Assembly (NCBI GenBank): GCA_021815405.1
Contig: JAKAGV010000014.1
Span: 1 to 64,000 of the forward strand
Direction: 5' to 3'
From: Bacteroidota bacterium
GTDB taxonomy: Bacteria; Bacteroidota; Ignavibacteria; Ignavibacteriales; Ignavibacteriaceae
Length of the DNA: 64,000 nt
Shown: positions 7,160 through 25,961 of the stretch, piece by piece
Numbering within the stretch: the first letter of the stretch is position 1
Layout: each line of letters begins with the position of its first letter
Made by a program: the position numbers and the translations under genes
The notes under the pieces: model-generated
The model's input: the letters and a program-made list of their open reading frames with translations, nothing else
Databases searched by the model: none
What the model was told of the DNA's origin: nothing

Positions 7160-7272
7160 CTTTAGATTGAATAAATATTTTTTTTAGTTGCAAATTCAAA
7201 ATAATATTCGCAGTTTTTCTTATCTAAATTTAAGTTTTATTAAACTTGAAGTTTTTATTTAATATTATTTTG

Positions 7273-10200
7273 ATGAAACAACACTTCTTCATTCTTAAAG
7301 TTTTGAAAAACCAGGGGAAGAGAAAGTTTCTCATTCTATTTTTCTGTCTCTTACTTGCCTTTTACGCAAAAGCTCAAGAAATGGATATGAATTTTGAACA
7401 TATCCTGAGTGACAAAGGACTATCTCAAAATACAATACATTGCATACTTCAAGATAGTAAGGGATTTCTCTGGTTTGCGACTGAAGACGGACTTGATAGG
7501 TACGATGGGTATAAGTTTACAGTTTATAAAAACAATCCGCAGGATAAAAATTCTATTGCGGATAATTTTATCTGGACGATGTACGAAGATAGAAGCGGCA
7601 ATCTCTGGATAGGAACTAATAGCGGCGGGCTTAGCAAATTTAATAGGGAGACAGAAAAATTTACTAATTATAAATTTGATCCGGCTAATCCAAATAGTTT
7701 AAGTAACAATAATGTAAGGGCTATTTTTGAAGATAGTCATGGAATTCTTTGGATTGGTACAGAAGGCGGCGGGTTAAATGAGTTTGACCGCAAAGATGAT
7801 AAATTTATTCATTTCACCAATTCACCAAATGATCCTCATAGCTTAAGTAATAATGTAGTGCTTTCTATTTTTGAAGATAACAATGGAACGCTCTGGATCG
7901 GTGGAGACGGCGGACTTGATAAATTTAATAGAGATAAAGGAAATTTTACCAACTATAAATACAATCCTAAAAATCCAAATAGCTTAAGCAATAATGTTGT
8001 GCTTTCCATGTACCAGGATAAAGAAGGAAACTTTTGGATTGGCACATTAAGCGGTCTAAATCTTTTTGATAAACAAAAGAAAAGCTTTGAGAGATTTTTT
8101 TGTAATACTGACATCTTCAGTAATCTTGACAACAACAGAATCAATCAGATACTCGAAGATAATTACAGAACACTTTGGGTAGCCACCGGCGGCGGATTAT
8201 ATCAATTTAACAGAAAGAGCAAAAAGTTTGTCAGTTTAAGTAAAACCACATTGCACCCGACAAGCATTAGCAACAAAAATATTCTTGCAATCTATCAAGA
8301 TAATTCAAACATCATTTGGATCGGAACCGGTGAGGGAGGGATAATAAAATTTGATAGGGAAAGAATGAAGTTTCAGCACTTCATGAATGATCCTTCTAAT
8401 CCGAACAGTCTAAGTTATAATACAGTGAGGGCACTATACCAGGATAAATCGGGAATTTTATGGATTGGTACTTTAGGCGGCGGTCTAAACCGTTACGATC
8501 CAAAAACAAATAAATTTACTCACTACATCTTCGAGGCTAAAAATCCAAACAGTTTAAGCAATAACTCTGTAATTTCTATTTACCGCGATAGAGAAGGTAC
8601 GCTCTGGGTAGGCACTTGGGGCGGAGGTTTAGATAAAGTAATTGAAGAAGGAAAATCCGGTTTGTTGAAATTTAAATGCTACAGGCATGATCTTTCAAAT
8701 CCATTCAGCATAAGTGACGATATTGTTCAATCAATCCTTGAAGACAACAAAGGAAGATTTTGGATCGGTACCGGAGTCGGGCTAGATTTATTTGATCGAA
8801 AGTCCGGTAAGTTTTATACATTCACGAATAATCCCCTGGATTCTGAAAGTATAAGTGAAAATCAAATTCAATCCTGCATATTGGAAGACAAGAATAGAAA
8901 TTTGTGGATAGGAACCTGGAATGGATTAAATAAGCTAAACTTAAATAAAGTTCCAATATCACCTCCTTTCGGGAAGCTATCTTTTGTTCATTATGTTCAC
9001 ATTGCTGATGATCCGAACAGTCTTAGCGATAACAGAGTTATTTCCGTTAATCAAGATAAGTATGGAGATCTTTGGCTTGGAACTTACGGCGGGGGGCTGA
9101 ACGAATTGACTGTCGATCAGCAAAAAAATACTGAAAACAGAAAAGCCGAGTTTATTCATTACTCAATTAAAGACGGATTAACTAGCAATATAATTTACAG
9201 CATACTCGAAGATAAAGAAGGCGACTTGTGGCTGAGTACTGATAACGGTTTGTCCAGGTTCAATCCTAAAGCTAGAGTTTTTAGAAACTATTATCAAAGT
9301 GACGGGCTGCAGGGTAATCAATTTTTCTGGGGTGCAAGTTTTAAAGGAATAAATGATGAATTATTTTTTGGCGGAACAAATGGTGTGAATGCTTTTTATC
9401 CTGCGAGTTTAAGAGATAATTTGCATGTACCGCCTATTGTTATTACCGACTTCCAAATTTTCAATAAACCTGTTCAGATTGCTGTAAAAGGTTCCCCACT
9501 CCATCAATCAATTGAAACGACAAAAGAAATCGAATTGTCATACAGCCAGAATGTCTTTTCGTTTGAATTTGCCGCGCTGGATTATACATCGCCGGGTAAA
9601 AACCAGTATGCGTATATGATGGAAGGTTTTGATAAAGATTGGATAAAATCAGGAAACCGCAGATTTGTTACTTATACCAATCTTGATCCGGGTGAATATG
9701 TTTTCAAAGTGATTGGTTCTAACAACGACGGCATCTGGAATAGAACAGGTGCCTCAATTAGAATTATTATTCTTCCACCTTTCTGGCGGACATGGTGGTT
9801 TATTCTAATTTCCATCCTTCTTATCGGCGGTTTTATTGCATTTATCATAATTTATAGAGTGAAAAACCTTCTTGCTATTGAAAGATTCAGAACTAAACTT
9901 GCTGCAGACCTTCACGATAACATCGGATCTAGCTTAACTGAAATTTCTATTCTAAGCGAAGTGATTTCCAAAAAGCTCGATTCGGTAGGAGATGAAGTAC
10001 AGAAACATTTAAAGATGATTAGCGATAATTCCAGAAATCTAATCGATAGTATGAGCGATATTGTTTGGCTTGTAAATCCAAACAGAGACTCTCTCTATGA
10101 TTTGATTTTAAGACTGAGAGACACTTACACTGAATTGTCTTCTTACACCAGTATTTCATTTAGATCCGAAAATTTAAAATCACTTGAGAAAGTTTCTCTG

Positions 10201-10485
10201 TCGATGGAACACCGTCAGCATTTGTATCTCATATTTAAAGAAGGAATAAACAACTGCATTACTCATAGCTGCTGTACGGAAATTTCACTCGATGCATTTG
10301 TAAGGGGAAAACATCTGGAAATGGTATTGAAGGATAATGGTAAAGGCTTCAACACAAGTGACAAATCAGGCGGCAATGGTTTAGAAAATATTAAGAGAAG
10401 AGCGGAAGCAATCGGAGGGACAATAAATATTTCTTCAAAAGAGGGTGAAGGAACAGTAATGCAATTTGTGGGAAATATTTTATAA
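7273..10485 (+). CDS. Two-component sensor histidine kinase with double seven-bladed propeller sensor
   Basis: A 1070-aa protein from the ATG at 7273; an in-frame TTG 27 nt upstream is possible but less likely. After an N-terminal signal/anchor come 14 two-component-regulator propeller repeats (pattern E-D-x-x-G-x-L-W-I-G-T), enough for two seven-bladed propellers. A Y_Y_Y domain follows (about residues 759-824), then one membrane span (about 839-861), a HisKA_3-type dimerisation helix with DLHDNIGSSL (phosphoacceptor His881) and an HATPase domain with DNGKGF and GGNGLENIKRRA. The periplasmic half matches glycan sensors of Bacteroidetes hybrid two-component systems, but there is no receiver or HTH domain here. 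The HisKA_3 type pairs with NarL/LuxR regulators, two of which follow directly. The ligand is probably an oligosaccharide, by inference from the downstream amylases. Confidence 0.93.
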   Translation: MKQHFFILKVLKNQGKRKFLILFFCLLLAFYAKAQEMDMNFEHILSDKGLSQNTIHCILQDSKGFLWFATEDGLDRYDGYKFTVYKNNPQDKNSIADNFIWTMYEDRSGNLWIGTNSGGLSKFNRETEKFTNYKFDPANPNSLSNNNVRAIFEDSHGILWIGTEGGGLNEFDRKDDKFIHFTNSPNDPHSLSNNVVLSIFEDNNGTLWIGGDGGLDKFNRDKGNFTNYKYNPKNPNSLSNNVVLSMYQDKEGNFWIGTLSGLNLFDKQKKSFERFFCNTDIFSNLDNNRINQILEDNYRTLWVATGGGLYQFNRKSKKFVSLSKTTLHPTSISNKNILAIYQDNSNIIWIGTGEGGIIKFDRERMKFQHFMNDPSNPNSLSYNTVRALYQDKSGILWIGTLGGGLNRYDPKTNKFTHYIFEAKNPNSLSNNSVISIYRDREGTLWVGTWGGGLDKVIEEGKSGLLKFKCYRHDLSNPFSISDDIVQSILEDNKGRFWIGTGVGLDLFDRKSGKFYTFTNNPLDSESISENQIQSCILEDKNRNLWIGTWNGLNKLNLNKVPISPPFGKLSFVHYVHIADDPNSLSDNRVISVNQDKYGDLWLGTYGGGLNELTVDQQKNTENRKAEFIHYSIKDGLTSNIIYSILEDKEGDLWLSTDNGLSRFNPKARVFRNYYQSDGLQGNQFFWGASFKGINDELFFGGTNGVNAFYPASLRDNLHVPPIVITDFQIFNKPVQIAVKGSPLHQSIETTKEIELSYSQNVFSFEFAALDYTSPGKNQYAYMMEGFDKDWIKSGNRRFVTYTNLDPGEYVFKVIGSNNDGIWNRTGASIRIIILPPFWRTWWFILISILLIGGFIAFIIIYRVKNLLAIERFRTKLAADLHDNIGSSLTEISILSEVISKKLDSVGDEVQKHLKMISDNSRNLIDSMSDIVWLVNPNRDSLYDLILRLRDTYTELSSYTSISFRSENLKSLEKVSLSMEHRQHLYLIFKEGINNCITHSCCTEISLDAFVRGKHLEMVLKDNGKGFNTSDKSGGNGLENIKRRAEAIGGTINISSKEGEGTVMQFVGNIL

Positions 10486-10617: not shown

Positions 10618-11256
10618 ATGATAAGTGTACTTGTTGTAGAAGATAACGATTCGATAAGGGAAGGATTAAAATTATTAATTGACGGCACCAATGGTTACTC
10701 CTGTATAGGTGCATTTTCCAGATGTGATTTTATGCTGAGGGAATTGGCAAAGCTAAATCCTGATGTGTTGCTTATGGACATCGGTTTACCGGGCATGAAT
10801 GGTATTGAAGGAATAAAGAAAGCCAAAGCAATTTTGCCGGAGCTTACAATTTTAGTCCTCACGGTTTATGAAGAAAACGAATTAGTCTTTGATGCGCTTT
10901 GCGCAGGAGCTTGCGGTTATCTTGTAAAAAAAACACCGCCGTCAAAATTGTTGGAAGCTATTCAGGAAGCTTACCAGGGTGGTGCACCGATGAGCGCTAA
11001 CATTGCAAGAAAGGTAATTGACTTCTTTCAAAACAAAAAAACTGTTGCGCCTCAAAAGCCGCAGAGTATTTTAACTCCGAGAGAAAAAGAAATTTTAACA
11101 GGTTTAGTTGAAGGAAATAGTTTTAAAGCGATTGCAGACTCTTTATTTATCAGCGTAGAAACTGTTCGATTTCACTTCAGGAATATTTATAAGAAACTTC
11201 ATGTCCATTCTCAATCCGAAGCCGTTGCCAAAGCGATAAAAGAGGGCATCGTATAA
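10618..11256 (+). CDS. NarL/LuxR-family response regulator (copy 1)
   Basis: A 212-aa protein. The receiver domain has the acidic pair ED at residues 8-9, phosphoacceptor D54 in LLMDIGLPGMNG, and the conserved K in LVKKTPP. The C-terminal LuxR-type HTH runs from about residue 149 (LTPREKEIL) to 207 and includes the recognition helix region ISVETVRFHFRNIYKKL. It lies 132 nt after the sensor kinase gene, is preceded by a GAGGA ribosome site, and is the obvious phosphotransfer partner. It is a near duplicate of the next gene. Confidence 0.95.
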   Translation: MISVLVVEDNDSIREGLKLLIDGTNGYSCIGAFSRCDFMLRELAKLNPDVLLMDIGLPGMNGIEGIKKAKAILPELTILVLTVYEENELVFDALCAGACGYLVKKTPPSKLLEAIQEAYQGGAPMSANIARKVIDFFQNKKTVAPQKPQSILTPREKEILTGLVEGNSFKAIADSLFISVETVRFHFRNIYKKLHVHSQSEAVAKAIKEGIV

Positions 11257-11376: not shown

Positions 11377-11450
11377 CTACCCATTTGGGTAGTAATATCT
11401 GATAAAACTATCATATTAAATACAAAATACCTTCGAATATGTAGTGGTTT
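11377..11450 (+). promoter_or_regulatory. Bipartite inverted-repeat element upstream of second response regulator
   Basis: The perfect palindrome CTACCCATTTGGGTAG (11377-11392) is followed after exactly 31 nt by a second conserved block beginning AAAATACCTTCG (11424-11450). The same two blocks recur with the same 31-nt gap at 12238-12311. The half-site TACCCAT resembles the heptamer known for NarL-type regulators, so the adjacent regulators are the natural candidates for binding. The conserved second block, ending TAGTGGTTT, may contain core promoter sequence. Basis: the repetition is directly visible; the binding protein is inferred. Confidence 0.7.
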
Positions 11451-11509
11451 TGAATTTGAACGGATAATAGATTTGAGGTTGGAATTTGGAATCTGGTAAT
11501 TGTAATCTA

Positions 11510-12148
11510 ATGATTAAAGTAGTTGTAGTTGAAGATAACGATACAATTCGCGAAGGACTGAAAGTATTAATTGATGGGACAGCAGGATATAACTGTATAG
11601 CCTCATTTCCAAAATGCGAAACGATGTTGAAGAGTTTGGAAAAACTGAATCCTGATGTTTTGTTAATGGATATTGGATTGCCTGGTATGAATGGTATCGA
11701 AGGAATAAAGCAGGCAAAAAAAATTTTACCTGAACTTACAATTTTAGTTCTTACAGTTTACGAAGAAAATGATTTAATATTTGAAGCACTTTGTGCGGGT
11801 GCATGCGGATATCTGGTAAAGAAAACACCGCCTTCGAAATTATTAGAAGCAATTAATGAGGCTTATAATGGCGGTGCCCCGATGAGTTCGCATATTGCAA
11901 GAAAGGTTATTGATTTTTTCCAGCAAAAAAAACAAACTTCCCCGGCGGGCTCACAAAATATTTTAACTCCGCGCGAACGTGAAATATTAAGCGGTTTAGT
12001 GGAAGGCAACAGTTTTAAAGCCATCGCCGATTCTTCATTTATAAGCATAGAAACGGTCAGGTTCCATTTCAGAAATATTTATAAAAAGCTTCACGTCCAT
12101 TCACAGTCTGAAGCAGTTGCCAAAGCAATTAAGGAAGGCTTGGTTTGA
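11510..12148 (+). CDS. NarL/LuxR-family response regulator (copy 2)
   Basis: I place the start at the ATG at 11510, giving 212 aa that align residue for residue with copy 1. A longer form from a TTG at 11486 adds eight residues with no counterpart in copy 1. It has phosphoacceptor D54 in LLMDIGLPGMNG and an HTH with ISIETVRFHFRN. The C-terminal 40 residues are almost identical to copy 1, so the two probably recognise the same DNA. It arose by tandem duplication. The bipartite repeat element lies just upstream (11377-11450), suggesting that this copy, unlike copy 1, is under auto- or cross-control. Confidence 0.94.
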   Translation: MIKVVVVEDNDTIREGLKVLIDGTAGYNCIASFPKCETMLKSLEKLNPDVLLMDIGLPGMNGIEGIKQAKKILPELTILVLTVYEENDLIFEALCAGACGYLVKKTPPSKLLEAINEAYNGGAPMSSHIARKVIDFFQQKKQTSPAGSQNILTPREREILSGLVEGNSFKAIADSSFISIETVRFHFRNIYKKLHVHSQSEAVAKAIKEGLV

Positions 12149-12237
12149 TTATTGAATAGATTGATTAACTCTTTGTTAACCGACAATCTAACAGTAAAAC
12201 AATATAGCAAATAATAATTATTATGCTTTGATAAGTT

Positions 12238-12311
12238 CTACCTATTTGGGTAGTATAGATTTAAAAAACCAACAAAATGTTAACAAAATACCTTCGTTTA
12301 GGTAGTGGTTT
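12238..12311 (+). promoter_or_regulatory. Second copy of the bipartite inverted-repeat element, before the glucan-uptake operon
   Basis: CTACCTATTTGGGTAG (12238-12253) matches the first copy except for one base. After the same 31 nt comes AAAATACCTTCGTTTAGG (from 12285), ending TAGTGGTTT at 12311; here the block itself contains TACC-N8-GGTA. The element sits 260 nt before the TonB receptor and directly before a very strong ribosome site (AAGGAGGTG, 12312-12320). The long leader between 12312 and 12570 otherwise shows only the two small reading frames listed separately. Confidence 0.7.
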
Positions 12312-12323
12312 AAGGAGGTGTAA

Positions 12324-12386
12324 ATGAGTAGCTTTTACGAGTTAAAAGTCTTTATACCGAAATTTTTACACCAGAATTTAAATTAA
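12324..12386 (+). CDS. Possible 20-aa leader peptide
   Basis: ATG at 12324 follows AAGGAGGTG (12312-12320), the strongest Shine-Dalgarno-like sequence seen in the window, at suitable spacing. The frame encodes 20 residues beginning MSSFYELKVF and ends TAA at 12384-12386. It lies just past the second operator copy and about 190 nt before the TonB receptor. No homology can be judged at this length. A leader peptide, a translation standby site, or chance are all open; I rate it above chance only because of the ribosome site. Confidence 0.35.
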   Translation: MSSFYELKVFIPKFLHQNLN

Positions 12387-12538: not shown

Positions 12539-12574
12539 ATGATCGATAATTTTATATCCCGGAGGGATGCATGA
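12539..12574 (+). CDS. Possible 11-aa upstream reading frame coupled to the TonB receptor
   Basis: ATG at 12539, nine bases after AGGAG, starts an 11-codon frame (MIDNFISRRDA) whose TGA stop overlaps the receptor's ATG as ATGA at 12571-12574. The receptor's own ribosome site (CCGGAGGG) lies inside this frame. The arrangement would allow translational coupling, but at this size it could be accidental. Confidence 0.3.
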   Translation: MIDNFISRRDA

Positions 12575-15387
12575 AATTTTTTCTACGGTTATTATTATTT
12601 TCATTCATATCGCTCTTATTATTTTCATCATATTCATATTCTCAAACCGGTAAGATTGCCGGTAGAGTTCTCGATACAAACAAACAGCCGATTGTTGGAG
12701 CTAACGTAGTTATTCTTGGTTCATCAATGGGTGCTGCAACTGATCTGGATGGCAATTATACCATATTGGATATTGCCCCGGGCGTTTACAATGTTAGAGT
12801 TTCTGCGGTAGGCTACGGCTCTGAAGAAGTAAAAGGAGCTCGTGTTTCGATTGACCTTACTACCAGACTCGACTTTGCACTTAAAGAAACGGCAGTTCAG
12901 GTTGAAACGGTTGTTGTTACTGCCCAGAAGCCGCTGGTGCAGAAAGATCTTACCTCTACAACTTCAATAGTCAATAGCAATGAAATTCAGCAGATGCCTG
13001 TAACAAGTGTTCAGGATGTTTTGGAACTTCAGGCGGGAATCGTAAAAGATCAGAACGGCAATCTGCATTTTAGAGGAAGCCGAGCTGGTGAAGTCTCATA
13101 CTGGATAGATGGTATACCTGTTACAAATTCTTATGATGGCTCAACAGTAGTTGATGTTAATAAGAATTCAATTCAAGAAATGCAAGTGGTTACCGGAACA
13201 TTTAATGCTGAATATGGTCAGGCAATGAGCGGTATTGTTAATATAGCTACCAAAACAGGTGGTAATGAATTGCACGGAAATATTACTGCTTACGGCGGAG
13301 GTTATGTAACGCAAAATTCAAATATTTTTACCGGACTTCAAACAATTAATCCGCTATCATCTCAATGGCTCGAAGGTTCATTGAATGGTCCTATAGTTAA
13401 AGATAAACTTTTCTTTTATGCAGATGCACGTTATTATTACAACCGAGGATATTTACAAGGCGTTAGAAAATTCAATACCTGGGATATAACCAACGCACAG
13501 GCTGCTAATGAAAACGACTGGATTATTCAGCAAACCGGAGATGGTAAGACTGTTCCGATGAATCCATTTCTGGAAGCTTATTTACAAGGCAAAGTTACTT
13601 ACAAGTTTTCTCCTTCTTTCCGCGTTTCGTATGATTATATATTAGATAACAGCCGCGGCAAAAATTATGATTTTTCTTATAAATATAATCCCGACGGAAT
13701 TTTAAGCAATTTCAAAAAAGGCTATTTAAATTCTTTAACAATTACTCAGACACTAAGTGCTAATACCTATTATAACCTTGGTGTATCTGATTATTTCACA
13801 GATTATAGAGAATATTTAGATACCGCAGCTTTTAGTCTTGGCGACCTCTTCACCAGGAAAGATCCATTTAATCAAGATTATGTTCATACAGCTCTGTTAA
13901 ATGCACCGGAAGGCACGTTCTATACAGGTGGAACGAATATGGCTCACAATGTTCGTAATAATAATACATTTGTAGTCAAATTTGATTTAACAAGTCAGGT
14001 AACTCCACACCACGAAATAAAGACAGGTGTCTTATTCAATCAATATCAATTATTCCTGCACAACATCAATCTGCATATGTCTTCGGTTGACAATAACAGA
14101 GATCCGGTTACAGATGGATATCCTTTCTTAAGAGATCCGGTAGTTATTCCTTCTTTTGAAAGTCAGGACAACCAGGAATATCTGCACAGACCTTGGCAGT
14201 TCTCCTATTATGTCCAGGATAAAATGGAATACAGCTCATTGATTATAAACCTTGGATTGCGTTTCGATTATTTCCATCCTGACGGACAAGTTTTAGCCGA
14301 TCCTTCTGATCCAAATATTTATCTACCGGTAAAACCGCAAAACCAGGATAGCGTAGTTGCCCCAGGCGGAACGCATGCACAAGCTGTTGCACAAAGAATG
14401 ACGTACTGGTATAAGAATGCTTCAAATAAATGGCAGCTTAGTCCAAGGTTAGGAGTTGCATTCCCGATTACTGATCGCGGCATCGTTCATTTTTCTTATG
14501 GATTGTTTTTCCAGATACCGGACTTCCAGAGACTTTATGAAAATCCGATGTACAAATTGCCTGTTACCGGTGGAAGCACAAACTTAGGTATTATTGGTAA
14601 TCCTGATTTACAACCGGAAGAAACAACAAGCGGCGAGCTTGGCTTGCAGCAGCAACTAACCGATGATATTGCAATCGATGTTACAGGTTATTTTAGAGAT
14701 ATTAGAAATCTTGCCGGTACTTTAAACGAAATTCAATACGTTTACGGCGGGACAAAAGTATACAGCCAATATGTTAACTCAGATTTTGGTTTCGTAAGAG
14801 GAATTGTCGTTTCATTAGATAAAAGATTCAGCGGAGGTCTTTCTGCTTCATTCGATTATACATTCCAGATTGCAAAAAGTGATGCATCAGATCCTACTAC
14901 AGCATATAATTTAAGAAACAGCGGAACTCAGCCAATGGCACAGCTTATTCCGACTGATTGGGATCAGACGCATACAGTTAATCTATCTATAAACTATGCT
15001 AATCCGAATGACTGGGGCGGAAGCTTAATCTGCCAGTATGGAAGCGGTACTCCTTACACACCACTTATGACAGTTAATGTCGGGGAACTGATTACTAATT
15101 CTCAATACAAGCCTTCTACTTTTAATATTGATCTACGGGCTTATAAAGATTTCAGAATCGGATCAAGTACTTTGTCAGTGTTCCTACGGGTATTCAACTT
15201 GCTTGATACTAAGAATGCTATTCAAGTTTATAATGATACCGGGCAGCCTGATTGGTCGCTTACCGAGCAAAGGCAAATCGAGATCAATCCGCCTCAGCGG
15301 GTATCTACCGTTCAGGATTGGTATACGCGAGGTTACTATTATTCTGAGCCAAGAAGAATAGAATTCGGCTCTTCAATATCATTTTAA
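12571..15387 (+). CDS. TonB-dependent outer-membrane receptor with carboxypeptidase-like regulatory domain
   Basis: A 938-aa protein with a signal peptide (ending near SYSYSQ) and an N-terminal carboxypeptidase-regulatory-like beta-sandwich (about residues 25-100: KIAGRVLDTNKQPIVGANVV). A plug domain follows (TTSIVNSNEIQQMPV, then FRGSRAGEVSYWIDGIPV and AEYGQAMSGIVNIATKTGG), then a 22-strand-type barrel ending in aromatic FGSSISF. It is the first gene of a five-gene operon with secreted amylase and starch-binding-type genes, so import of malto-oligosaccharides or another alpha-glucan is the likely role. Unlike classic Sus loci, no SusD-type lipoprotein gene accompanies it. CGGAGGG precedes the ATG. 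Expression is probably driven from the repeat element at 12238-12311. Confidence 0.92.
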   Translation: MKFFLRLLLFSFISLLLFSSYSYSQTGKIAGRVLDTNKQPIVGANVVILGSSMGAATDLDGNYTILDIAPGVYNVRVSAVGYGSEEVKGARVSIDLTTRLDFALKETAVQVETVVVTAQKPLVQKDLTSTTSIVNSNEIQQMPVTSVQDVLELQAGIVKDQNGNLHFRGSRAGEVSYWIDGIPVTNSYDGSTVVDVNKNSIQEMQVVTGTFNAEYGQAMSGIVNIATKTGGNELHGNITAYGGGYVTQNSNIFTGLQTINPLSSQWLEGSLNGPIVKDKLFFYADARYYYNRGYLQGVRKFNTWDITNAQAANENDWIIQQTGDGKTVPMNPFLEAYLQGKVTYKFSPSFRVSYDYILDNSRGKNYDFSYKYNPDGILSNFKKGYLNSLTITQTLSANTYYNLGVSDYFTDYREYLDTAAFSLGDLFTRKDPFNQDYVHTALLNAPEGTFYTGGTNMAHNVRNNNTFVVKFDLTSQVTPHHEIKTGVLFNQYQLFLHNINLHMSSVDNNRDPVTDGYPFLRDPVVIPSFESQDNQEYLHRPWQFSYYVQDKMEYSSLIINLGLRFDYFHPDGQVLADPSDPNIYLPVKPQNQDSVVAPGGTHAQAVAQRMTYWYKNASNKWQLSPRLGVAFPITDRGIVHFSYGLFFQIPDFQRLYENPMYKLPVTGGSTNLGIIGNPDLQPEETTSGELGLQQQLTDDIAIDVTGYFRDIRNLAGTLNEIQYVYGGTKVYSQYVNSDFGFVRGIVVSLDKRFSGGLSASFDYTFQIAKSDASDPTTAYNLRNSGTQPMAQLIPTDWDQTHTVNLSINYANPNDWGGSLICQYGSGTPYTPLMTVNVGELITNSQYKPSTFNIDLRAYKDFRIGSSTLSVFLRVFNLLDTKNAIQVYNDTGQPDWSLTEQRQIEINPPQRVSTVQDWYTRGYYYSEPRRIEFGSSISF

Positions 15388-15404
15388 TTTTGCAGGTTAA
15401 TATT

Positions 15405-18400
15405 ATGCGTAAATTGTTAATAATAAGTTTGATTTTTATAGCAGCTGATATATCCTTCGGTCAAGTCGATTATTTTATACAATGGGCTAAAACTCACCGG
15501 GGCAATGCATTGTATACTCGCTTCGGAGTTCATAACGGCAATCGAATTGCAATCTCCTTTCGAAGTGATGGTTCAATTTCCGGAACAAATCCTAATGATA
15601 TTAGAGGATACTGGCCTTATCCAATGACTCAAGACGGATATATCGGAGACGTTACTCCACTTGTCGGTATACAAATTCCTATCAGGGATTATAATGGAGA
15701 CGGAAAACCGGATACACTTCATAACGTAACTATTTCACCGGGTCCTAGAAACGGACAGGCTGCAAAAGTTGATCCGAATGATGGGCACTTTCAAGGTTTT
15801 GAACCAGAACCAGGTTATGTTAATTTAAGTCAAGACACCGTGGCAATGAGCCATATACCTTCAACATGGCCTTCATTTTGGCCTGATAATCCGAGTTGGC
15901 TTGATTCTACAGGGAAACCTCAGTGGGATGGATATTTCGGCAGAGGTGTAATTAGAGCTGATCAGGAAAGTTATTTTGTTATGGATGACGCGCAGGATAA
16001 TAATCCCCAGATGAGGACAAATTATCTCTTTCACCCGGATTCTACCGATACAACAAGAAACGGGATGGGACTAGTTGTTCGAGTAAGAGGAATGCAATGG
16101 TCTCAAGTTCAAGCTCAAGATGTTTTATTCTGGTTGTACGATATTACAAATATAGGAACGACAAATTATCAGGAAGTAGTTTTTGGTGAAGTTGTAGGAG
16201 GATGCGTCGGTGATGTCGGACAGAATTATATTGATTGCAGCGACGACCTTGGTTACTTCGATGTAAACAATAATTTAACTTATACATGGGATAGTGATGA
16301 CCACACTGCTGATCCTCTATGGCTGCCGATAAATCAATTCCTTCCCGGGGTTCGTACAAATATTGGCTATGCCGGTTATGCATACCTAGAAAGCCCCGGT
16401 AACGGATATGATGGAATTGACAACGACAATGATGCCGTCGATCCTAACAGCCCGGTTTTTCAGAATAAAGATTTTACTTTTAATTCTCAAATGAACGCTT
16501 ATACAGCTACAAGAACCTTGCACAGAAGCGATCCCGGTACTGATCCAAGTTGGCCGTCAAATGAGATCGTTTTAATTAATCCTAGCACATATGCAAGAAC
16601 CATTGTCCAGCTTGATACTTTACTTAAGAGTAACACTGATACTGTTATTGTTTACTCATTAGGTCATCCCTATAAAATATATGATGGCGAAGTTCTTAGT
16701 GAAATTCCGAATAACGGACTAGACGATAACCTTAACGGAATTATTGATGAAAACCATGATATACATTATGAAAAAGTATTTAAAGATAGAAATGGTGTTA
16801 TTCTTAAAGTGGAAAACAGACCATTAGCCTACAGGGATTATTTCACAGGCGGCGGAATGAATAATACCCTTATAGATGAATCAAGAGATAGTGGTCCTGG
16901 GCAGATTGTTACCGGCTGGGTCCCGGATTACAGTGCACAGCCCGACCCAATTACAGGTAAATATCCAGGTAAAGTAGAGACGCATTGGTCTGGCGATGAA
17001 AACGGCGACTGGAATAGAGCAAAAGATGATGTAGGTGCAGATGGATTGCCAGGCACGCATGATCTTGGTGAAGGAGATGGAATTCCGACCGAAGGTGAGC
17101 CGCACTTCGATAAAACTGACGTTGTTGAATCTGATCAAATTGGTTTAACAAGTTTCAACTTTTTTAATCAAACTCAATCACCACCAATGAACAATAACGA
17201 AATCCTTTGGAATAGAATGATACCCGGATATTTTGATGTTATTCCTTTGTTGCCGCAGGATGGTGATTTTATTTATGCATCAGGATATTTTCCGTTATTA
17301 CCACTTAAGTCTGAGAGATTTTCATTAGCATTGGTTTTCGGTGCTGATAGTGCACATATTTTTAAGAATAAACAAATTGCTCAAAAGATTTATAACGCTA
17401 ATTATGATTTCTTGAAACCACCACCAAAGCCTCACCTCACTGTAGTTCCCGGTGATAAACAAGTAACATTGATTTGGGATGATAAAGCTGAAAGTTATAC
17501 TTCATTTGAAGGTTATAAGATTTATCGTTCTACAGATCCTGGTTTTACGGAAGGCGGTGGAGAGCCGATTGCTACGTTCGACCTTCAAGACAGCGTGTGG
17601 GGATACTTTGTTCCTGCAACTGAAGATCTGGCCGAACTTCCAAGATTTTATTTGGGAAGCAATACCGGATTAGTTCATAGTTATGTGGATAGAAATCTCC
17701 AGAATGGGCAAGGATATTATTACGCAGTTACTGCATATACTTCTGGCGATGCACAAAGTAATATTTACCCTGCGGAAGATCCCAAGTTCATTACGGTAAA
17801 TGCAGATGGCAGTGTAAGGCAGGATGTTAACACTGCTTTTGTTACTCCAAGAACTTCCGTAGCAGGATATGTCGGACCAAACGCACCTAGTTTGGTTGGA
17901 GCTGCCCCGGGAACATCACTATCTGGAACCGGCAAAGTATATTTGCATGTTGTAAATCCAGATGCAGTGGCAGATAAAACATATCGCATATCATTTAATT
18001 CGCAGGTTCAGAACTATATACCGGTTACTTCCGGATATAATGTTATAGATTATACAAATCCAAATCTCCCGGACACAGTGTTAACTGCTTCTATATTCCC
18101 TAACATGCAGTTGGGTGATCAAGATAAGTATGTATTTGATGGAGTTTATCTCGAAGTAGATAACGATTGGAATGTAGCTTATGATACGGCAACATCAGGA
18201 TGGAATGCGCCACATTCAAGCCCTAATTATAAAATATCTTTTAATGCTTTTTCATTAGGCGGTGTTAAACAGACAGGAGTTGCCTATCCAAGTGATTATA
18301 ATGTTGTTTTCGATGCAAGTCATACTACAGCAGATACTTCGTCTCAATTAACAATCACTTATAACAATAGTCTGTTCCAGATTCCGGCTGTAAATTCTAA

Positions 18401-19028
18401 TTTCAGAATTTATAATGCAGTTACAGGAGCACCGGTTTCTTATGCTTATCTAGATGCAGGAATAAAGAATACATTTTCGTATCTCGATAGAATTATCCTT
18501 CTTCAAAATACAACTACCGCAAGTGGAAAAGATACTACTATTATAACTTGGCTGCTGCAAGTTTTCGGAAATGATACAACCAATTATCATCCTACCACTG
18601 GTGATACTTTGAAGTTAAGGGTAACCAAGCCATTCTCTAGTTCTGATCTTATGCAGATTACCACACAGAGTGCTTCTGTAGATAACAAGCTTGCATCTTC
18701 TCAACTAGATAGGATTAGAGTTGTTCCTAATCCTTATATTGCAGCAACAAGCCAGGAGCAGCCGCTTCCACCTACAATTACAAGCGGCAGAGGCACAAGG
18801 AAAATTACTTTCTATCATTTACCTAAAGGATCTACTATTTATATTTATACCTCAAGAGGTGAGCTGGTTAGGAAATTGCAAATGACTGATTCGAATATAA
18901 ATGATGGAAGCTTAAACTGGGATTTAACTTCCTCCGCAAACCTCGAGGTAGCGTACGGCGTTTATTTCTATCTTGTAGATGCGCCTGGTGTTGGACAGAA
19001 GTATGGAAAAATCGCCATTATCAAGTAA
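15405..19028 (+). CDS. Large secreted protein with FN3-like module and T9SS-type C-terminus
   Basis: 1207 aa from the ATG at 15405; the frame extends upstream to a TTG at 15390, which lacks a signal-peptide rationale. A signal peptide ends near ISFG. Acidic Asn/Asp-rich loops such as DYNGDGKPDTL, DNDNDAVDPN and NGLDDNLNGIIDE look like calcium-binding repeats. A fibronectin-III-like module begins around residue 680 (VVPGDKQVTLIWDD, GYKIYRSTDPGF). The C-terminus (VVPNPYI, then GVYFYLVDAPG and GKIAIIK) fits a T9SS sorting domain. It lies 17 nt after the TonB receptor. No catalytic motif is recognised; it may be a surface-anchored partner of the receptor. The specific role is unknown. Confidence 0.8.
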   Translation: MRKLLIISLIFIAADISFGQVDYFIQWAKTHRGNALYTRFGVHNGNRIAISFRSDGSISGTNPNDIRGYWPYPMTQDGYIGDVTPLVGIQIPIRDYNGDGKPDTLHNVTISPGPRNGQAAKVDPNDGHFQGFEPEPGYVNLSQDTVAMSHIPSTWPSFWPDNPSWLDSTGKPQWDGYFGRGVIRADQESYFVMDDAQDNNPQMRTNYLFHPDSTDTTRNGMGLVVRVRGMQWSQVQAQDVLFWLYDITNIGTTNYQEVVFGEVVGGCVGDVGQNYIDCSDDLGYFDVNNNLTYTWDSDDHTADPLWLPINQFLPGVRTNIGYAGYAYLESPGNGYDGIDNDNDAVDPNSPVFQNKDFTFNSQMNAYTATRTLHRSDPGTDPSWPSNEIVLINPSTYARTIVQLDTLLKSNTDTVIVYSLGHPYKIYDGEVLSEIPNNGLDDNLNGIIDENHDIHYEKVFKDRNGVILKVENRPLAYRDYFTGGGMNNTLIDESRDSGPGQIVTGWVPDYSAQPDPITGKYPGKVETHWSGDENGDWNRAKDDVGADGLPGTHDLGEGDGIPTEGEPHFDKTDVVESDQIGLTSFNFFNQTQSPPMNNNEILWNRMIPGYFDVIPLLPQDGDFIYASGYFPLLPLKSERFSLALVFGADSAHIFKNKQIAQKIYNANYDFLKPPPKPHLTVVPGDKQVTLIWDDKAESYTSFEGYKIYRSTDPGFTEGGGEPIATFDLQDSVWGYFVPATEDLAELPRFYLGSNTGLVHSYVDRNLQNGQGYYYAVTAYTSGDAQSNIYPAEDPKFITVNADGSVRQDVNTAFVTPRTSVAGYVGPNAPSLVGAAPGTSLSGTGKVYLHVVNPDAVADKTYRISFNSQVQNYIPVTSGYNVIDYTNPNLPDTVLTASIFPNMQLGDQDKYVFDGVYLEVDNDWNVAYDTATSGWNAPHSSPNYKISFNAFSLGGVKQTGVAYPSDYNVVFDASHTTADTSSQLTITYNNSLFQIPAVNSNFRIYNAVTGAPVSYAYLDAGIKNTFSYLDRIILLQNTTTASGKDTTIITWLLQVFGNDTTNYHPTTGDTLKLRVTKPFSSSDLMQITTQSASVDNKLASSQLDRIRVVPNPYIAATSQEQPLPPTITSGRGTRKITFYHLPKGSTIYIYTSRGELVRKLQMTDSNINDGSLNWDLTSSANLEVAYGVYFYLVDAPGVGQKYGKIAIIK

Positions 19029-19037
19029 GAGGATTTT

Positions 19038-20045
19038 ATGAAGAAATTTTTATTGTTTTTAATTTGTTCATTTTTAATCGGAAATATTTACGGTCAGAAT
19101 AAGGTTGGCACTACTGCTGCCCCTTTCCTCGGAATTGGAGCCGGACCGCAAGCAATCGGTATGGGCGGTGCTTATACTGCAGTTGCAACAGATGGCTCTG
19201 CGCTGTATTGGAATCCGGCAGGTGCATCTCGAGTTGGACAAACACAGGTTTTAATTGAACATACTAGTTACCTGTTAGGTACTAGCTATGATTATTTTGC
19301 CGGTATTGTTGCTCTGGATGAGAATAATGTTATCGGATTCAGCGTAACCGATCTCAATTATGGCTCTGAAGATGTAACTACGGTTCAAAATCCCGATGGA
19401 ACCGGTGAAAAGTGGAGCGCTATGGATTTGGCTGTCGGCTTATCTTACGCAAGAAATTTGACAGATAGATTTTCCATTGGCGGTACAGCTAAAATGATTA
19501 GGCAAACTATCTGGCGTGAATCTGCAACCGGTTGGGCATTAGATGCCGGTCTGCTTTACATTACTCCTTTTAATGATTTAAAAATCGGAATGGAAATAGC
19601 TAACTTCGGTACTGATATGCAGATGACGGGTCAGGATCTTTACGTTACTTATGACCCGGCAAAGTCTTTAGCAGGTAATAACAAATCTATCCCTGCCGAA
19701 TATTATACTGCTAGTTATCCATTGCCTTTGCTATTCAGAGTTGGTTTGGCAATGGATGTACTTCATACTGAAGATAATGTAATTACTGTTGCAGTAGATG
19801 CATTGCATCCAAGCGACAATAATCAGAGCGTTAATGTTGGCGCTCAGTATGCATGGAATAAAATGGTATATGCAAGAATAGGTTATAAATCTCTGGGGGT
19901 ACCGAATAGCCAGGAAGGATTGACTTTTGGCTTCGGTCTCGGGTATGAGTTAACCTATAATTTGAATTTGAGAGTTGATTATGCATACGAAGCATACGGA
20001 TTACTTCAAAATATTCAGAAATTTTCTTTGGCGCTTAGCTTCTAG
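19038..20045 (+). CDS. PorV/PorQ-family outer-membrane beta-barrel protein
   Basis: A 335-aa protein with a signal peptide ending near IYGQ. The N-terminal hallmark of the PorV/UPF0164 family follows: FLGIGAGPQAIGMGGAYTA, ATDGSALYWNPAG. The remainder is alternating beta structure ending in FSLALSF. Family members are FadL-like barrels; PorV shuttles T9SS cargo to the surface attachment complex. Lying inside an operon that encodes several proteins with T9SS tails (9 nt after one and 2 nt before an amylase), it may be a dedicated cargo or surface-attachment factor. Another outer-membrane transport role cannot be excluded. Confidence 0.88.
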   Translation: MKKFLLFLICSFLIGNIYGQNKVGTTAAPFLGIGAGPQAIGMGGAYTAVATDGSALYWNPAGASRVGQTQVLIEHTSYLLGTSYDYFAGIVALDENNVIGFSVTDLNYGSEDVTTVQNPDGTGEKWSAMDLAVGLSYARNLTDRFSIGGTAKMIRQTIWRESATGWALDAGLLYITPFNDLKIGMEIANFGTDMQMTGQDLYVTYDPAKSLAGNNKSIPAEYYTASYPLPLLFRVGLAMDVLHTEDNVITVAVDALHPSDNNQSVNVGAQYAWNKMVYARIGYKSLGVPNSQEGLTFGFGLGYELTYNLNLRVDYAYEAYGLLQNIQKFSLALSF

Positions 20046-20047
20046 TT

Positions 20048-23000
20048 ATGTCGAAAATAGCTAAATATTTTCTGCTGGTTGCTGCTATTCCTTATGTGGT
20101 TTATTCTCAGACGGATTCTGCTGTAGTACCGGTTGAATTTCAATTCTACAAAGTTCTTCAACCGAATGAAACCGGTGCGGGGATAAACGGATCATTCAAC
20201 AATTGGGGGAATAATTCGGATGGGAGCGGCAACAATGCACACTTAATTCCGATGAAGAATGTAGGAAATAATCTTTGGGATGTTACGGTTCCAATTCCCG
20301 TGGGAAAATACGAATATAAATTTGTTACTTACCAGATCGGTGCCAATGGTGATACAATTGTTTCTTCATGGACTACCGACCCGCTCAATTCGGATTACGG
20401 CGGACCATACAACAACAGCAGAATAAATGTTGCGGATCCGATGATTTATTATCTGCAGCCGATGAACAATACATCTATCAATGTTAAGGAACCAGAAATA
20501 TCGGCAAAGATATCCTGGGCTTACGCATCCTCCATTAACTTGTCTTCGCTAAAGCTTATAATTGATAATGTGCCAGTTCCAAATGCTCAGCAATATTTCG
20601 ATACAACCACAAGAACTTTTTCTTACAAGCCGTCTTCTCCATATACACCTGCTGCACATTCGGTAGAGATATCGGTTAAAAACAATGCTGGCGTTACGGC
20701 GGACTTGGTTACAAATTTTACTGTAGTTAATGCAATTCTGACCGCACCTTACACTTTCGTATTCGATCCTCTTTCTCCAAACGTAAATATTATAGGAAAG
20801 ATTAACAAAGTTGAAATAAAAGGTACGTTCAACAATTTAGGTTCAGATCCAATGTCCGGTCCCGACAGCGACGGAGTTTATAAATATACCGTGCCGCTAA
20901 ATATCGGCGTTCCGAATTTTTATCAATTCATAATAAACGGCGGGCAGTATATTGATGATCCGGATAATCCTTTAATGCAAAAAGATTTTGGTACGATTGC
21001 CGTTAAGCATGTAAATCCGAATCCAAGTTTCCAGATAATCTCACCGAGGCAAGGACAGCTTTTCACACCAGGTCAAAGTCTAACAGTTTCTGCCAATTTA
21101 ATTCAAAGCGATTCGGGATATGCGATAAATAATAACTCTATAAAAATTTATCTTGATGGAAATCCGATTTCTATAGCATCGATCGATTCAATATCTAACG
21201 GAGTGCAGATTACAGCCGCACCATTTAATGTTACTGCCGGTAGACACGAATTGGAATTTGTCGGGGCAGATACAATTAACGCAAAGACTCAATCTTTAAT
21301 TACATTTGGAAGCTTCTACAGCAACACCGGTTTCCATTATGTCGATGCCGATAGCGACGACAACGGTCCTGGTAGTTATACTTATCCGACTTTCAGTGCT
21401 AAAGGATCGGCTGATATTAGAGAAATAGATATCAATGCTAATGCAACAAACGACTCTCTTTTATTTACTGTCTCGATGGGATTAATAAGTGATTACACAA
21501 GAGTCGGCTTCGAAATTGTTAACTCAACTGCAGGTCCTCTTATCAATGCGCCAGACAATGCTGCAATTCAATTGCCGGATCCGGCTAACAAAGGCGTATT
21601 CTTTATTGTAACTTCACCAAACTCAGCGCAGAATTCTTCATATGTTGATAGAATTTATAGCTCTGCAAATTTGACCTCAGCTTCCATTGATACAATTGTT
21701 GTCAACTCCGATGCTGAGAGCTCAGGAATTTTTAAATTTGCAATTCCGATAAGTACAATTGAAAATGTTGCAGGAAGTTTTTCATACGGCTGGTACTTTG
21801 CAGCTTATTCTTACCTCGGAAATTCTGGCGGCGGCTGGAAGGTTGCAAATAGTAACGGAGGTTCTTTCTTCCCCGAGCAGCCTAATATTTACGATGCAGC
21901 TTTCTTTTATAATAATTATCTTAAGAAGAGAAATCTTGCCGATTATAATTATTCTTTCAATTACGGCGGCTCGCGTTACGTAAAGCTTTCATCAAATATG
22001 CGCGGAATGCAGTTCATACGCCCTCAAGATATTTCTGCTACTCTGGCTTCAAAACCATTTGTTAAAATTCTTACCGATGGAGGAAATATAAGATGGAGCG
22101 ATACTGTTAGAGTTTATGTCGCCGAAAGTGATCCTTCGGTAACCAGCGGAATTTTGATGTCAAATACAAATTCATACAGTTTGACATTTGTTAATGACAC
22201 AGCCTATGCAGATGTTATTTTATCCGAAGGTGAAAATGAGCTTCAAGCAAATGTTCCTTACGGTTCCGGCTTTAAGAGCTACAGTGCAAAAGTTTTTTTC
22301 AACAGGATTGTAGACCACAAACCTAATATTTCAATTACAAAAAATACCAGCGGAAGTACAGTAACTTTGAATGCGAGCGGTACTACTAATGTTGATAATC
22401 TTCCTCAATTATTTAATTGGTCGCAGGATACGGCTAATCCTCAGCAAGTATCTTTAAGCGGAAGTAATTCATCATCAGTTTCATTTGCAACACCGAAAAT
22501 TTTTGGGCAATATTTTTATACCGTTACGGCTTCTACTTCTAAAGATACTTCTTTTGAAAGAGTAGCTTTGGTTGTTGATTCTACCGGTGCCTATTTCCCG
22601 GATTTAACAACTTGGCATGCCGGCTGGATTGATTCTGCAATAATCTACGAAGTTTATGTAAAGACTTTTACTCTCGATGGAAATCTTCAAGCATTAACAA
22701 GAAGAATTCCTTATATCAAATCGCTTGGATTTAATACAATTTGGCTGATGCCGATTTATCCCGGACCGGCAATTTCTCCAAGTCAGCCTGGATATGCGAT
22801 TACAAATTATTTCAACGTAAATCCATCTTATGGAACTCTAAATGATTTTAAGGCATTTGTGGATGCTGCTCATGCAAACGGACTTAGAGTCGTTCTTGAT
22901 TACGTTGTTGATCATACTCATAATACTCATCCATTCATGCTTGATGCATTTAAGTATGGACCAAAATCTCCATACTATAATTTTTATGGATGGAACCCTG

Positions 23001-24250
23001 ACGGCACTTATAAATATTTATATACCTGGACTGATTTCCCATTTATAAATTTTGTTCCTCAAAGAAATAAAGATTATTTACTTGATGTTGCAAAGTTCTG
23101 GCTGGAGAATTATAACATAGATGGATTTAGATGCGATGCCGCCGCTGAGGTGAATGACCAACATCCTGGCGGAAGCGATTTCTGGCAGCAATTTAGAAGC
23201 ACTTTAAAAACGATAAAGCCAGACATCTGGCTGCTCGGCGAGATGAGCGCTCGCAATCTTTCTTACTTCGATAAGAAATTTGATTCGGGTTATGATTATG
23301 ATTTCTTCAACTCTATTAGAAATGCAATTTCAAACTACAATTTATTATCACAGCTCGATACTTCTGTTGCATTTTACAGCTCAAGCAGTTATCCTTCTTA
23401 CTTGAGACCGTTTAGATTTTTGGAGAATCATGACCAGTCGAGATTTATTTCCGAATATACGGTTGATCAAACAAAACTTGCTGCTTCGGTACTTTTAACT
23501 CTACCTGATGTCCCGATGATTTATGCTGGACAGGAAGTTGGAGAAACATCTTACCGCGGCTTAATTGATTGGAGCGATCCTAATAATCTTGAACCTTACT
23601 ATCAAAAGCTGGTTTGGCTTAAAAGAAATTATAACGCGCTTTCCATAGGTGCATTTAAAGACGTTTTCAATTCGTCTCCGGATTCTATCTACTCATATGC
23701 TCGAATGACGGACTCCCTGCCTGCTGTTGTTGTTTCAAATTTTACCAACAATACTATTAGTTTTTATTTAAATGTTGATTCACTTCATTTGAAAATGCAG
23801 CAGAACAAACCGTATTATTTCAACGATGTTCTGAATGATACTGTATATTCTATTACAAGCACGAGTCATTTTAATATGAGTTTACCGGCTTATGGTTCTG
23901 AAATATTAATTTTTTCTGACAAAGCTTTAATTACAACGGTAGAAAATAATTACTCGAATCATGTATCTACTTATTCACTTGAGCAGAACTATCCAAATCC
24001 GTTTAATCCAACAACAACAATAAGATATTCTGTAGGTGGATTTGGAGCTTCACCGGTTAATATTTCTATTTATAACATACTTGGACAAAGGATCAAAACG
24101 CTTGTAAATAGTGTTGAAATCCCCGGTTATTACAATGTACAATGGGATAGCCGGAATGATTACGGCAACATTGTCTCAAGCGGAATTTATTTTTATGTTC
24201 TTAGAGTGAATAATTTTATTCAAACTAAAAAAATGATTCTCCTGAAGTGA
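20048..24250 (+). CDS. Secreted multidomain GH13 alpha-amylase (paralog 1) with T9SS tail
   Basis: A 1400-aa protein. After the signal peptide come two AMPK-beta/CBM48-like glycogen-binding modules (INGSFNNWGN near residue 45 and IKGTFNNLGSD near 260). A module resembling the glucodextranase C-terminal binding domain follows (DADSDDNGPGSYTYP, about 435-600), then the GH13 barrel from about residue 860. All four GH13 signature regions are present: DYVVDHTH, FRCDAA (nucleophile D1030), LLGEMSA (acid/base E1065) and ENHDQSRF (D1129). The end is a T9SS type A domain (NYPNPFNPTTTI, then KKMILLK). It should hydrolyse alpha-1,4-glucans at the cell surface. It starts 2 nt after the PorV-like gene. 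Linkage preference cannot be judged. Confidence 0.92.
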   Translation: MSKIAKYFLLVAAIPYVVYSQTDSAVVPVEFQFYKVLQPNETGAGINGSFNNWGNNSDGSGNNAHLIPMKNVGNNLWDVTVPIPVGKYEYKFVTYQIGANGDTIVSSWTTDPLNSDYGGPYNNSRINVADPMIYYLQPMNNTSINVKEPEISAKISWAYASSINLSSLKLIIDNVPVPNAQQYFDTTTRTFSYKPSSPYTPAAHSVEISVKNNAGVTADLVTNFTVVNAILTAPYTFVFDPLSPNVNIIGKINKVEIKGTFNNLGSDPMSGPDSDGVYKYTVPLNIGVPNFYQFIINGGQYIDDPDNPLMQKDFGTIAVKHVNPNPSFQIISPRQGQLFTPGQSLTVSANLIQSDSGYAINNNSIKIYLDGNPISIASIDSISNGVQITAAPFNVTAGRHELEFVGADTINAKTQSLITFGSFYSNTGFHYVDADSDDNGPGSYTYPTFSAKGSADIREIDINANATNDSLLFTVSMGLISDYTRVGFEIVNSTAGPLINAPDNAAIQLPDPANKGVFFIVTSPNSAQNSSYVDRIYSSANLTSASIDTIVVNSDAESSGIFKFAIPISTIENVAGSFSYGWYFAAYSYLGNSGGGWKVANSNGGSFFPEQPNIYDAAFFYNNYLKKRNLADYNYSFNYGGSRYVKLSSNMRGMQFIRPQDISATLASKPFVKILTDGGNIRWSDTVRVYVAESDPSVTSGILMSNTNSYSLTFVNDTAYADVILSEGENELQANVPYGSGFKSYSAKVFFNRIVDHKPNISITKNTSGSTVTLNASGTTNVDNLPQLFNWSQDTANPQQVSLSGSNSSSVSFATPKIFGQYFYTVTASTSKDTSFERVALVVDSTGAYFPDLTTWHAGWIDSAIIYEVYVKTFTLDGNLQALTRRIPYIKSLGFNTIWLMPIYPGPAISPSQPGYAITNYFNVNPSYGTLNDFKAFVDAAHANGLRVVLDYVVDHTHNTHPFMLDAFKYGPKSPYYNFYGWNPDGTYKYLYTWTDFPFINFVPQRNKDYLLDVAKFWLENYNIDGFRCDAAAEVNDQHPGGSDFWQQFRSTLKTIKPDIWLLGEMSARNLSYFDKKFDSGYDYDFFNSIRNAISNYNLLSQLDTSVAFYSSSSYPSYLRPFRFLENHDQSRFISEYTVDQTKLAASVLLTLPDVPMIYAGQEVGETSYRGLIDWSDPNNLEPYYQKLVWLKRNYNALSIGAFKDVFNSSPDSIYSYARMTDSLPAVVVSNFTNNTISFYLNVDSLHLKMQQNKPYYFNDVLNDTVYSITSTSHFNMSLPAYGSEILIFSDKALITTVENNYSNHVSTYSLEQNYPNPFNPTTTIRYSVGGFGASPVNISIYNILGQRIKTLVNSVEIPGYYNVQWDSRNDYGNIVSSGIYFYVLRVNNFIQTKKMILLK

Positions 24251-25823: not shown

Positions 25824-25852
25824 ATCCTCCTAGGAACATTTGCCTACAGAAG

Positions 25853-25879
25853 GGGTCGTTTGAAAAGACGACCCTTTTT
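25853..25879 (+). terminator. Rho-independent terminator of the receptor/amylase operon
   Basis: The stem GGGTCGT (25853-25859) pairs with ACGACCC (25868-25874) around an 8-nt loop, followed directly by TTTTT. It separates the operon from the second amylase gene, implying that the latter has its own promoter in 25880-25946. Confidence 0.9.
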
Positions 25880-25961
25880 GTTTTGCTGCCAAAAATTTTT
25901 CAGCTGGTATTCTTGTTTTTCTGTATTCCATTTTGAAAAATAATTTTTGGAGATTAAATCA

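Follow-up and report, generated by a model that had tools for sequence, protein, structure and literature searches.

The locus studied here poses the question why one composite DNA element occurs twice among the genes of a two-component system and of glucan uptake, and which protein reads it. In the window (the whole stretch of DNA that was analysed, 64,000 nt long), copy 1 of the element covers 11377-11450 and precedes the gene of a response regulator (RR2, ATG 11510), and copy 2 covers 12238-12311 and precedes the gene of a TonB-dependent receptor (ATG 12571). A sequence-only reading had described the element as bipartite with identical internal spacing, and direct reading at both places bears this out, with 31 nt between the blocks each time. 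Judged by comparison with relatives, the element is real and under selection, and we regard it as quite probable that each copy constitutes a phase-locked pair of sites through which a NarL/LiaR-like regulator activates a promoter, serving both feedback on RR2 and the control of alpha-glucan use.

The genes from the sensor kinase to the second alpha-amylase lie on the + strand. A sensor kinase (7246..10485) with Reg_prop propeller, Y_Y_Y, HisKA_3 and HATPase_c domains is followed by the response regulators RR1 (10618..11256) and RR2 (11510..12148; the ORF list begins it at TTG 11486), which are 83% identical and have the recognition helix RFHFRN in common. Both contain a receiver and a GerE (NarL/LuxR-type) domain, with PF00072 and PF00196 above cut-off, and are therefore of the NarL/FixJ type, so that the two NarL-type regulators that had been read next door are indeed present. 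RR2 aligns along the NarL structure 1a04; the closest solved structure to the whole regulator is VraR (5hev, E 2e-27), and those closest to the DNA-binding domain are VraR, GerE, ComA and related proteins. The first gene past element 2 encodes the TonB-dependent receptor (12571..15387), after which come a 1212-aa protein without Pfam match that is kept behind the TonB gene in several relatives (15390..19028), a PorV-like outer-membrane protein (19038..20045), an alpha-amylase (20048..24250; PF00128, secretion-tail matches under cut-off), a starch-binding CBM_20 protein with a T9SS tail (24330..25823), and a second alpha-amylase (25947..30230), possibly on a separate transcript. A hairpin followed by a T run is visible by eye at 25850-25882, past the CBM_20 gene, so this last amylase may own a promoter. 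On the other side, a 303-aa protein without Pfam match (6248-7159) lies 5' of the kinase and has a counterpart at the corresponding position in five relatives (41-60% identity), and a TANGO2-family protein (5339-6106) adjoins the locus.

Comparison resolves three blocks in the element, rather than two. In element 1, block 1 (11377..11392, CTACCCATTTGGGTAG) is a distal palindrome of 7-2-7 form, CTACCCA TT TGGGTAG, followed by a mostly unconserved linker of 31 nt (11393..11423) and by block 2 (11424..11447), a proximal site whose centre at 11435.5 lies 51 bp from that of block 1; the letters at 11424-11450 are AAAATACCTTCGAATATGTAGTGGTTT. Element 2 repeats this layout with block 1 at 12238..12253 (CTACCTATTTGGGTAG), a 31-nt linker at 12254..12284, and block 2 at 12285..12308, centred at 12296.5 and again 51 bp from its partner (AAAATACCTTCGTTTAGGTAGTGGTTT at 12285-12311). 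Block 3, which was absent from the earlier reading, is a promoter-like box exactly 20 nt past GTAGTGG, TAGATTTG at 11468..11475 and TAGCTTTT at 12329..12336. In the shared form, 31 nt separate CTACCYATTTGGGTAG as block 1 from AAAATACCTTCGNNTANGTAGTGG as block 2, and block 3 follows. The two copies agree at 17/18 positions of block 1 plus two bases and at 24/27 of block 2, and the earlier statement that the intervening letters are unconserved holds as well, as the remaining linker is identical at 14/29 positions versus 10.7 in shuffles, 12% of which reach 14. Palindrome symmetry extends to 7 and 6 of 8 positions in the two copies of block 1 and to 4 and 5 of 8 in block 2, a poor palindrome, whose mode of binding could differ from that of block 1.

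Within the window, block 1 is matched five times with at most three mismatches (0.51 expected), four of these matches being the two palindromic sites counted once per strand, and block 2 has two exact matches, with 0.00 expected at up to three mismatches. Across the 4.97-Mb genome, the genome-wide search that the sequence-only reading had proposed returned the strict two-block pattern at the two window sites alone and nowhere in the reversed control. A profile of the element, derived from sequence alone with 21 copies as input, scores 78 and 63 bits at the two copies and at most 13.8 bits elsewhere in the same genome; since both copies were training rows, it is the gap to the next match that counts and not the scores themselves.

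Conservation follows the regulators. We aligned 21 copies from 11 genomes (G000, G001, G003, G004, G007-G010 and G012 of the genus, plus G025 and G027), leaving out G006, element 1 of G025 and the rows of family f2 (G041, G047, G048, G053, G054, G057), and all invariant columns of this alignment fall within the three blocks. The order kinase, RR1, element, RR2, element is kept in relatives, which answers the earlier question of site conservation where gene order persists. The kinase-RR-RR arrangement recurs in the genus, in G025 and G027 of the same family, and in six loci of f2, a family that includes an isolate of Melioribacter roseus and two records under the name Melioribacteraceae; in G061, from the same family as G025 and G027, the regulator pair was seen. 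Outside the training rows, two elements each were found in G006 (57.9 and 51.6 bits) and G061 (56.6 and 47.6 bits), and among 46 loci scanned (65 found) 25 carry a match with E<1e-3, 15 of them from non-training genomes. Ten of the 13 genus genomes encode an orthologue of RR1/RR2 (best E 1e-70 or better), and each of these ten has the element; in G002 and G011 neither an RR orthologue nor a full element was found, and in G005 (79% complete) the element is present and an RR orthologue was not detected.

Furthermore, the 13 genus genomes hold nine further copies with E<1e-3, five of which stand upstream of alpha-amylase genes of about 1410 aa, identified by Pfam in G003, G008 and G009 and by sequence likeness in G005 and G006: G003:C4 (43.8 bits; it shares contig and strand with element 2 and lies about 17 kb beyond it), G005 (51.4 bits, at a contig end), G006 (39.8), G008:C99 (44.9) and G009 (27.3). 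Two more, G012:C115 (42.0 bits) and G003:C27 (35.4), have no same-strand gene downstream, and two weak copies in G008 (26.3 and 24.1 bits) precede other genes, whose N-termini look lipoprotein-like by eye. A spread over many unrelated genes, which would have spoken against a glycan role, is therefore not what the genus displays. At the two geneless copies (L194 2096-2187, L195 7828-7925) relatives have an amylase gene, and these copies are possibly fossils of a lost gene; at the two weak G008 sites (L197, L198) block 1 reads CATGATTAGA. Among 41 family genomes we treat weak profile matches, those named here excepted, as noise. Of those looked at, L133, L134, L135 and L136 lie in or across coding sequence, G025:C58 (22 bits, upstream of an amylase) is no better than shuffles, and the G030 match is a class B element (see below).

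Single sites resembling block 1 were met elsewhere. One upstream of a glucan phosphorylase gene of the window's genome (C14:119765; one mismatch, 0.06 expected per genome) was dropped from the regulon, because it is absent upstream of the orthologue in all 8 genus genomes readable there and has no clear block 2. In 7 of 9 genomes examined (fragments of G006 left out), a nuclease-amylase operon (C12 in the window's genome) is preceded by a single block-1-like site with at most three mismatches and no block 2; in G009 that site precedes another amylase gene, in G003 it has 4 mismatches, and in G001 the contig begins near the gene. Such single sites (L080 6446; L203, L205, L200, L206, L207, L199) mostly lie past an A run upstream of the nuclease-amylase or amylase operon. 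Their signal is suggestive only, as about 1.5 chance matches per genome are expected at up to two mismatches and G011 has such a site without an RR orthologue.

A spacing rule emerges from the same comparison. A row counted as clear when its score exceeded that of the best shuffle by 3 or more (10 shuffles in the first class A tally, 20 in the second and for class B). With the distance left free in the first tally, the block centres lie 50-52 bp apart in 23 of 25 clear rows and 41 bp apart in 2; the 9 of 34 rows that failed the rule all belong to f2 (9 of 12 f2 rows below threshold). In the second tally, which leans towards 50-52 bp as its rows were found with a profile built at that spacing, 13 of 20 clear rows lie at 50-52 bp, 6 at 40-41, and one (L223) is a 44/40 tie; here 4 of 24 non-duplicate rows failed (G008:C81, G008:C20, G025:C58 and the phosphorylase site), and 5 rows duplicating first-tally genomes were set aside (L228 twice, L229, L235 twice). 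For G012:C115, G003:C27, L225 and L222 another distance scored only one point lower. Combined, 36 of 45 clear class A rows are found at 50-52 bp, 8 at 40-41 and one at the 44/40 tie, counts that ignore the kinship of rows related by descent. The step between the two distances equals one helical turn, and no clear row peaks at a half turn.

A natural control is offered by class B, 12 related kinase-regulator pairs whose regulator is about 60% identical and which are set apart by a branch supported at 100/99; these loci were chosen by eye among 21 single-regulator loci, and their consensus was drawn from the same rows. Their palindromes, CYRCAYANNTRTGYRG, differ from those of class A, and yet with the distance left free 10 of 12 are clear, at 51 bp in 8, 52 in 1 and 50 in 1. 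By eye, a small gene follows in 11 of 12 class B loci (the two whose length was measured have 83 and 87 aa), and in L065-L077 the CYRCAYANNTRTGYRG palindromes lie past the regulator, upstream of that small conserved gene. The recognition helix reads VRHHIRN or VRHHIKN in class B, versus VRFHFRN in RR1 and intact RR2 (VRYHFRN in RR1 of G025). These residues align to the VKVHVKH stretch of NarL (1a04), which we take to include the exact residues by which NarL contacts DNA. Helix alpha-9 is the NarL recognition helix according to PMC4549865. Both blocks differ together with the regulator while the geometry is unchanged, which argues that one regulator would bind both blocks. In the window's own genome, the regulator loci L137-L139 have no convincing paired palindromes.

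The class B comparison also bears on the proposal that selection acts on two separated blocks, either an operator plus a promoter or two regulator sites. The latter fits better, since both palindromes differ between the classes along with the recognition helix; the former suffers from the promoter-like box being a separate third block. Block 3 reads TAGnTTW exactly 20 nt past GTAGTRG in 20 of 21 aligned copies, with TA and TT in 21/21 and G at position 3 in 20/21; in 29 further profile-found rows TAnnTT follows block 2 at +20 in 24, at +19 in 1 and at +21 in 2, and is absent in 2. Activated promoters usually have a weak -33 element, and no common TTTG, the -33 element of the Bacteroidota sigma-A promoter, was found there in the 21 aligned rows, GTAGTRG ending at about -33 in all of them. 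According to PMC6847099 and PMC9723704, the Bacteroidota -7 box is TAnnTTTG, to which the fit of block 3 is partial, since position 8 is G in only 1 of 21 aligned copies; PMC6847099 further places the first T of this box at -12 and reports that Flavobacterium avoids G at position 3. Counting the first T of block 3 as -12 would put the centre of block 2 at -44.5 and that of block 1 at -95.5, with transcription starts expected near 11480 and 12341. A sigma-70 promoter scan called no promoter at block 3 (10 found in all versus 6.1 +/- 2.2 in shuffles). A start-like signal after copy 2, AAGGAGGTGTAAATG, is not kept in the relatives read.

It could still be argued that block 1 alone is the operator and that block 2 is a core or extended promoter element read by RNA polymerase, as block 2 keeps a fixed distance to block 3, is conserved above block 1, and in the forms TACCTTCG/TACCTTTG is similar to TAnnTTTG. 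We consider this improbable, for a separate TAnnTT box lies 20 nt downstream, several block 2 copies read AACCTCTG and show no TAnnTTTG fit, and the class B counterpart of block 2 is clearly palindromic, resembles the block 1 it is paired with and differs with the regulator. No better odds are given to the view that an unlinked regulator binds the element and that RR1 and RR2 are mere neighbours. Response regulators are numerous in these genomes, with as many as 52 scored matches in one, and G011, which lacks an RR orthologue, retains a block-1-like site upstream of its nuclease-amylase operon; against this, the full element and the RR1 orthologue are present or absent together in 12 of 13 genus genomes, and the two motif types pair with the two recognition helices.

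Less probable again, and clearly so, is that the blocks act as RNA hairpins, in leader control or as the terminator of the upstream gene. Block 1 can form a 6-bp hairpin (-8.8 and -6.4 kcal/mol), and its arms pair at 88.9% versus 31-52% when the partner columns are slid by 1-3, as is expected of any palindrome; however, shuffles pair at 87.5% (88.9% being reached by 91/500) and 133/500 of them reach the covariation, the left arm drifts whereas the right one hardly varies, no terminator was called on the + strand, and Rfam gave one chance match far below its gathering score. In addition, the promoter-like box downstream would leave the blocks outside a transcript begun there. That the second copy is a passive relic of a tandem duplication of regulator plus element, or a small mobile repeat, we hardly credit at all: the RR-element-RR-element order and the 83% identity of RR1 and RR2 are as duplication gives, but across genera both copies retain their blocks and their spacing despite decay of the linkers, and a mobile repeat would sit oddly with just two copies in the genome, so that duplication may explain the origin of the second copy, not its conservation.

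How does the regulator site pair relate to known systems? Resemblance of the half-site to the NarL heptamer had been noted from the start, and it stands for geometry (CTACCCA-TT-TGGGTAG) and protein family, not for register. The NarL heptamer consensus is TACYYMT; block 1 consists of inverted heptamers with a 2-bp gap, but these, CTACCCA / CTACCTA, stand one position off the consensus register, and block 2 is an imperfect palindrome. As in the E. coli NarL sites of napF, where PMC4549865 puts a 7-2-7 site at -40 to -49, a NarL-type regulator is combined with inverted heptamers that a 2-bp gap separates, a site placed near -44.5 and the letters ACC...GGT; unlike there, heptamer register and inner letters are changed, two phase-locked sites lie about 51 bp apart, and the matter is starch, not nitrate. 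LiaR, VraR and ComA-type regulators are the best sequence relatives with solved structures, compared here by protein sequence. In layout and function taken together, the nearest parallel is with the SusR sites predicted in Bacteroides, where according to PMC3878776 two boxes stand 67 or 77 bp (six or seven turns) apart: a starch regulator, two conserved sites, a long unconserved spacer and whole-turn spacing are found in both. SusR boxes are direct repeats at those distances, in contrast to the inverted repeats at about 41 or 51 bp here, and SusR itself is a one-piece membrane regulator with another DNA-binding domain. The locus is also reminiscent of Bacteroides HTCS systems, in which a periplasmic glycan sensor is encoded beside uptake genes (PMC3878776). 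It differs in having a separate kinase and regulators, and GerE instead of AraC, where HTCS join kinase, receiver and AraC in one chain. The HTCS sensor carries Reg_prop/Y_Y_Y domains. Among the titles and abstracts searched, mostly of open journals and exclusive of preprints, no description of the element or of an Ignavibacteria starch regulon was found.

On the site-pair reading, each element would be the control region of an activator-dependent promoter, with activation rather than repression as the likely outcome of binding. A phosphorylated dimer of RR1, and in this genus probably of RR2 too, would occupy block 2 at about -44.5, reaching to about -33, and a second dimer would sit on block 1 at about -95.5, some five helical turns upstream and on the same face, both recruiting RNA polymerase to the promoter with block 3 as its -7/-10 box. 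The propeller/Y_Y_Y sensor of the kinase would report alpha-glucan as the presumed ligand. The promoters so controlled would be those of RR2 itself (feedback) and of the glucan-uptake operon, joined in relatives by those of additional amylase genes.

The genes served by element 2 are exchangeable. In G003, G004, G008 and G010 it is followed by a homologue of the window's TonB gene (77 to 47% identity) and then by the 1212-aa protein, whereas in G007 and G012 another TonB receptor with SusD-family and SusE-family proteins (a SusC/SusD/SusE set) takes this place, and in G001 a receptor of the same kind as in G007 and G012 extends up to the contig end. Between element 2 and the new genes, G012 keeps a 49-aa remnant of the window-type TonB gene, and G007 and G001 have a short frame resembling such a remnant; the TonB set in some relatives and the Sus set with TonB remnants in others indicate that the control region stayed while genes were exchanged within glucan uptake. 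The contigs of G006 and G009 end too early to show the operon, and in G025, G027 and f2 the TonB homologue is more distantly related and lies as far as about 4 kb downstream. The exchanged-operon loci are L041 (5148-352, - strand), L042 (5640-3, - strand) and L046 (2231-4087).

RR2 has had a history of its own. In all six f2 loci its full frame has 192-205 codons, ends soon past the recognition helix and has the helix letters scattered; in four of the six (G041, G047, G048, G057) Pfam finds no GerE domain or scores it under cut-off, in G053 and G054 the match is partial, and the receiver domain is intact in 6/6. Element 1 upstream of these decayed genes is clear in G041 and G048 only. In G061, too, RR2 has diverged and matches GerE in part, and in G025 the helix of RR2 is altered. 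The RR-element-RR-element layout is the one that tandem duplication of regulator plus element would yield, but one single duplication is unsupported, as the trees leave RR1 and RR2 unseparated; repeated duplication or gene conversion may have been at work. In G008 (L048), RR1 and RR2 show zero distance on the receiver tree and identical C-termini, with an N run near the RR2 start, owing to either gene conversion or an assembly effect.

More tentatively, and with a little less than even confidence, we propose from these sequence patterns that phase-locked double operators have co-evolved with NarL-type regulators across Ignavibacteriales, with whole-turn spacing (about 41 or 51 bp), a specificity switch between RFHFR with GGTAG-type and RHHIR with CYRCAYA-type sites that leaves the architecture untouched, and a control region that outlives the genes it serves (TonB/PorV to SusC/D/E). 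In f2, on the Melioribacteraceae side, an RR2 with decayed DNA-binding domain may serve as a phosphate sink or a partner damping the circuit, while RR2 of the window's genus still looks able to bind. The site-pair reading itself would allow a starch regulon to be predicted for a group that is widespread and mostly uncultured, and nature would offer an experiment in the recognition of paired sites by NarL-family regulators, with two motif types, two recognition helices and one geometry. Given the repeatedly decayed second regulator and the operon swap, the way in which feedback and regulon content evolve would, moreover, become directly testable.
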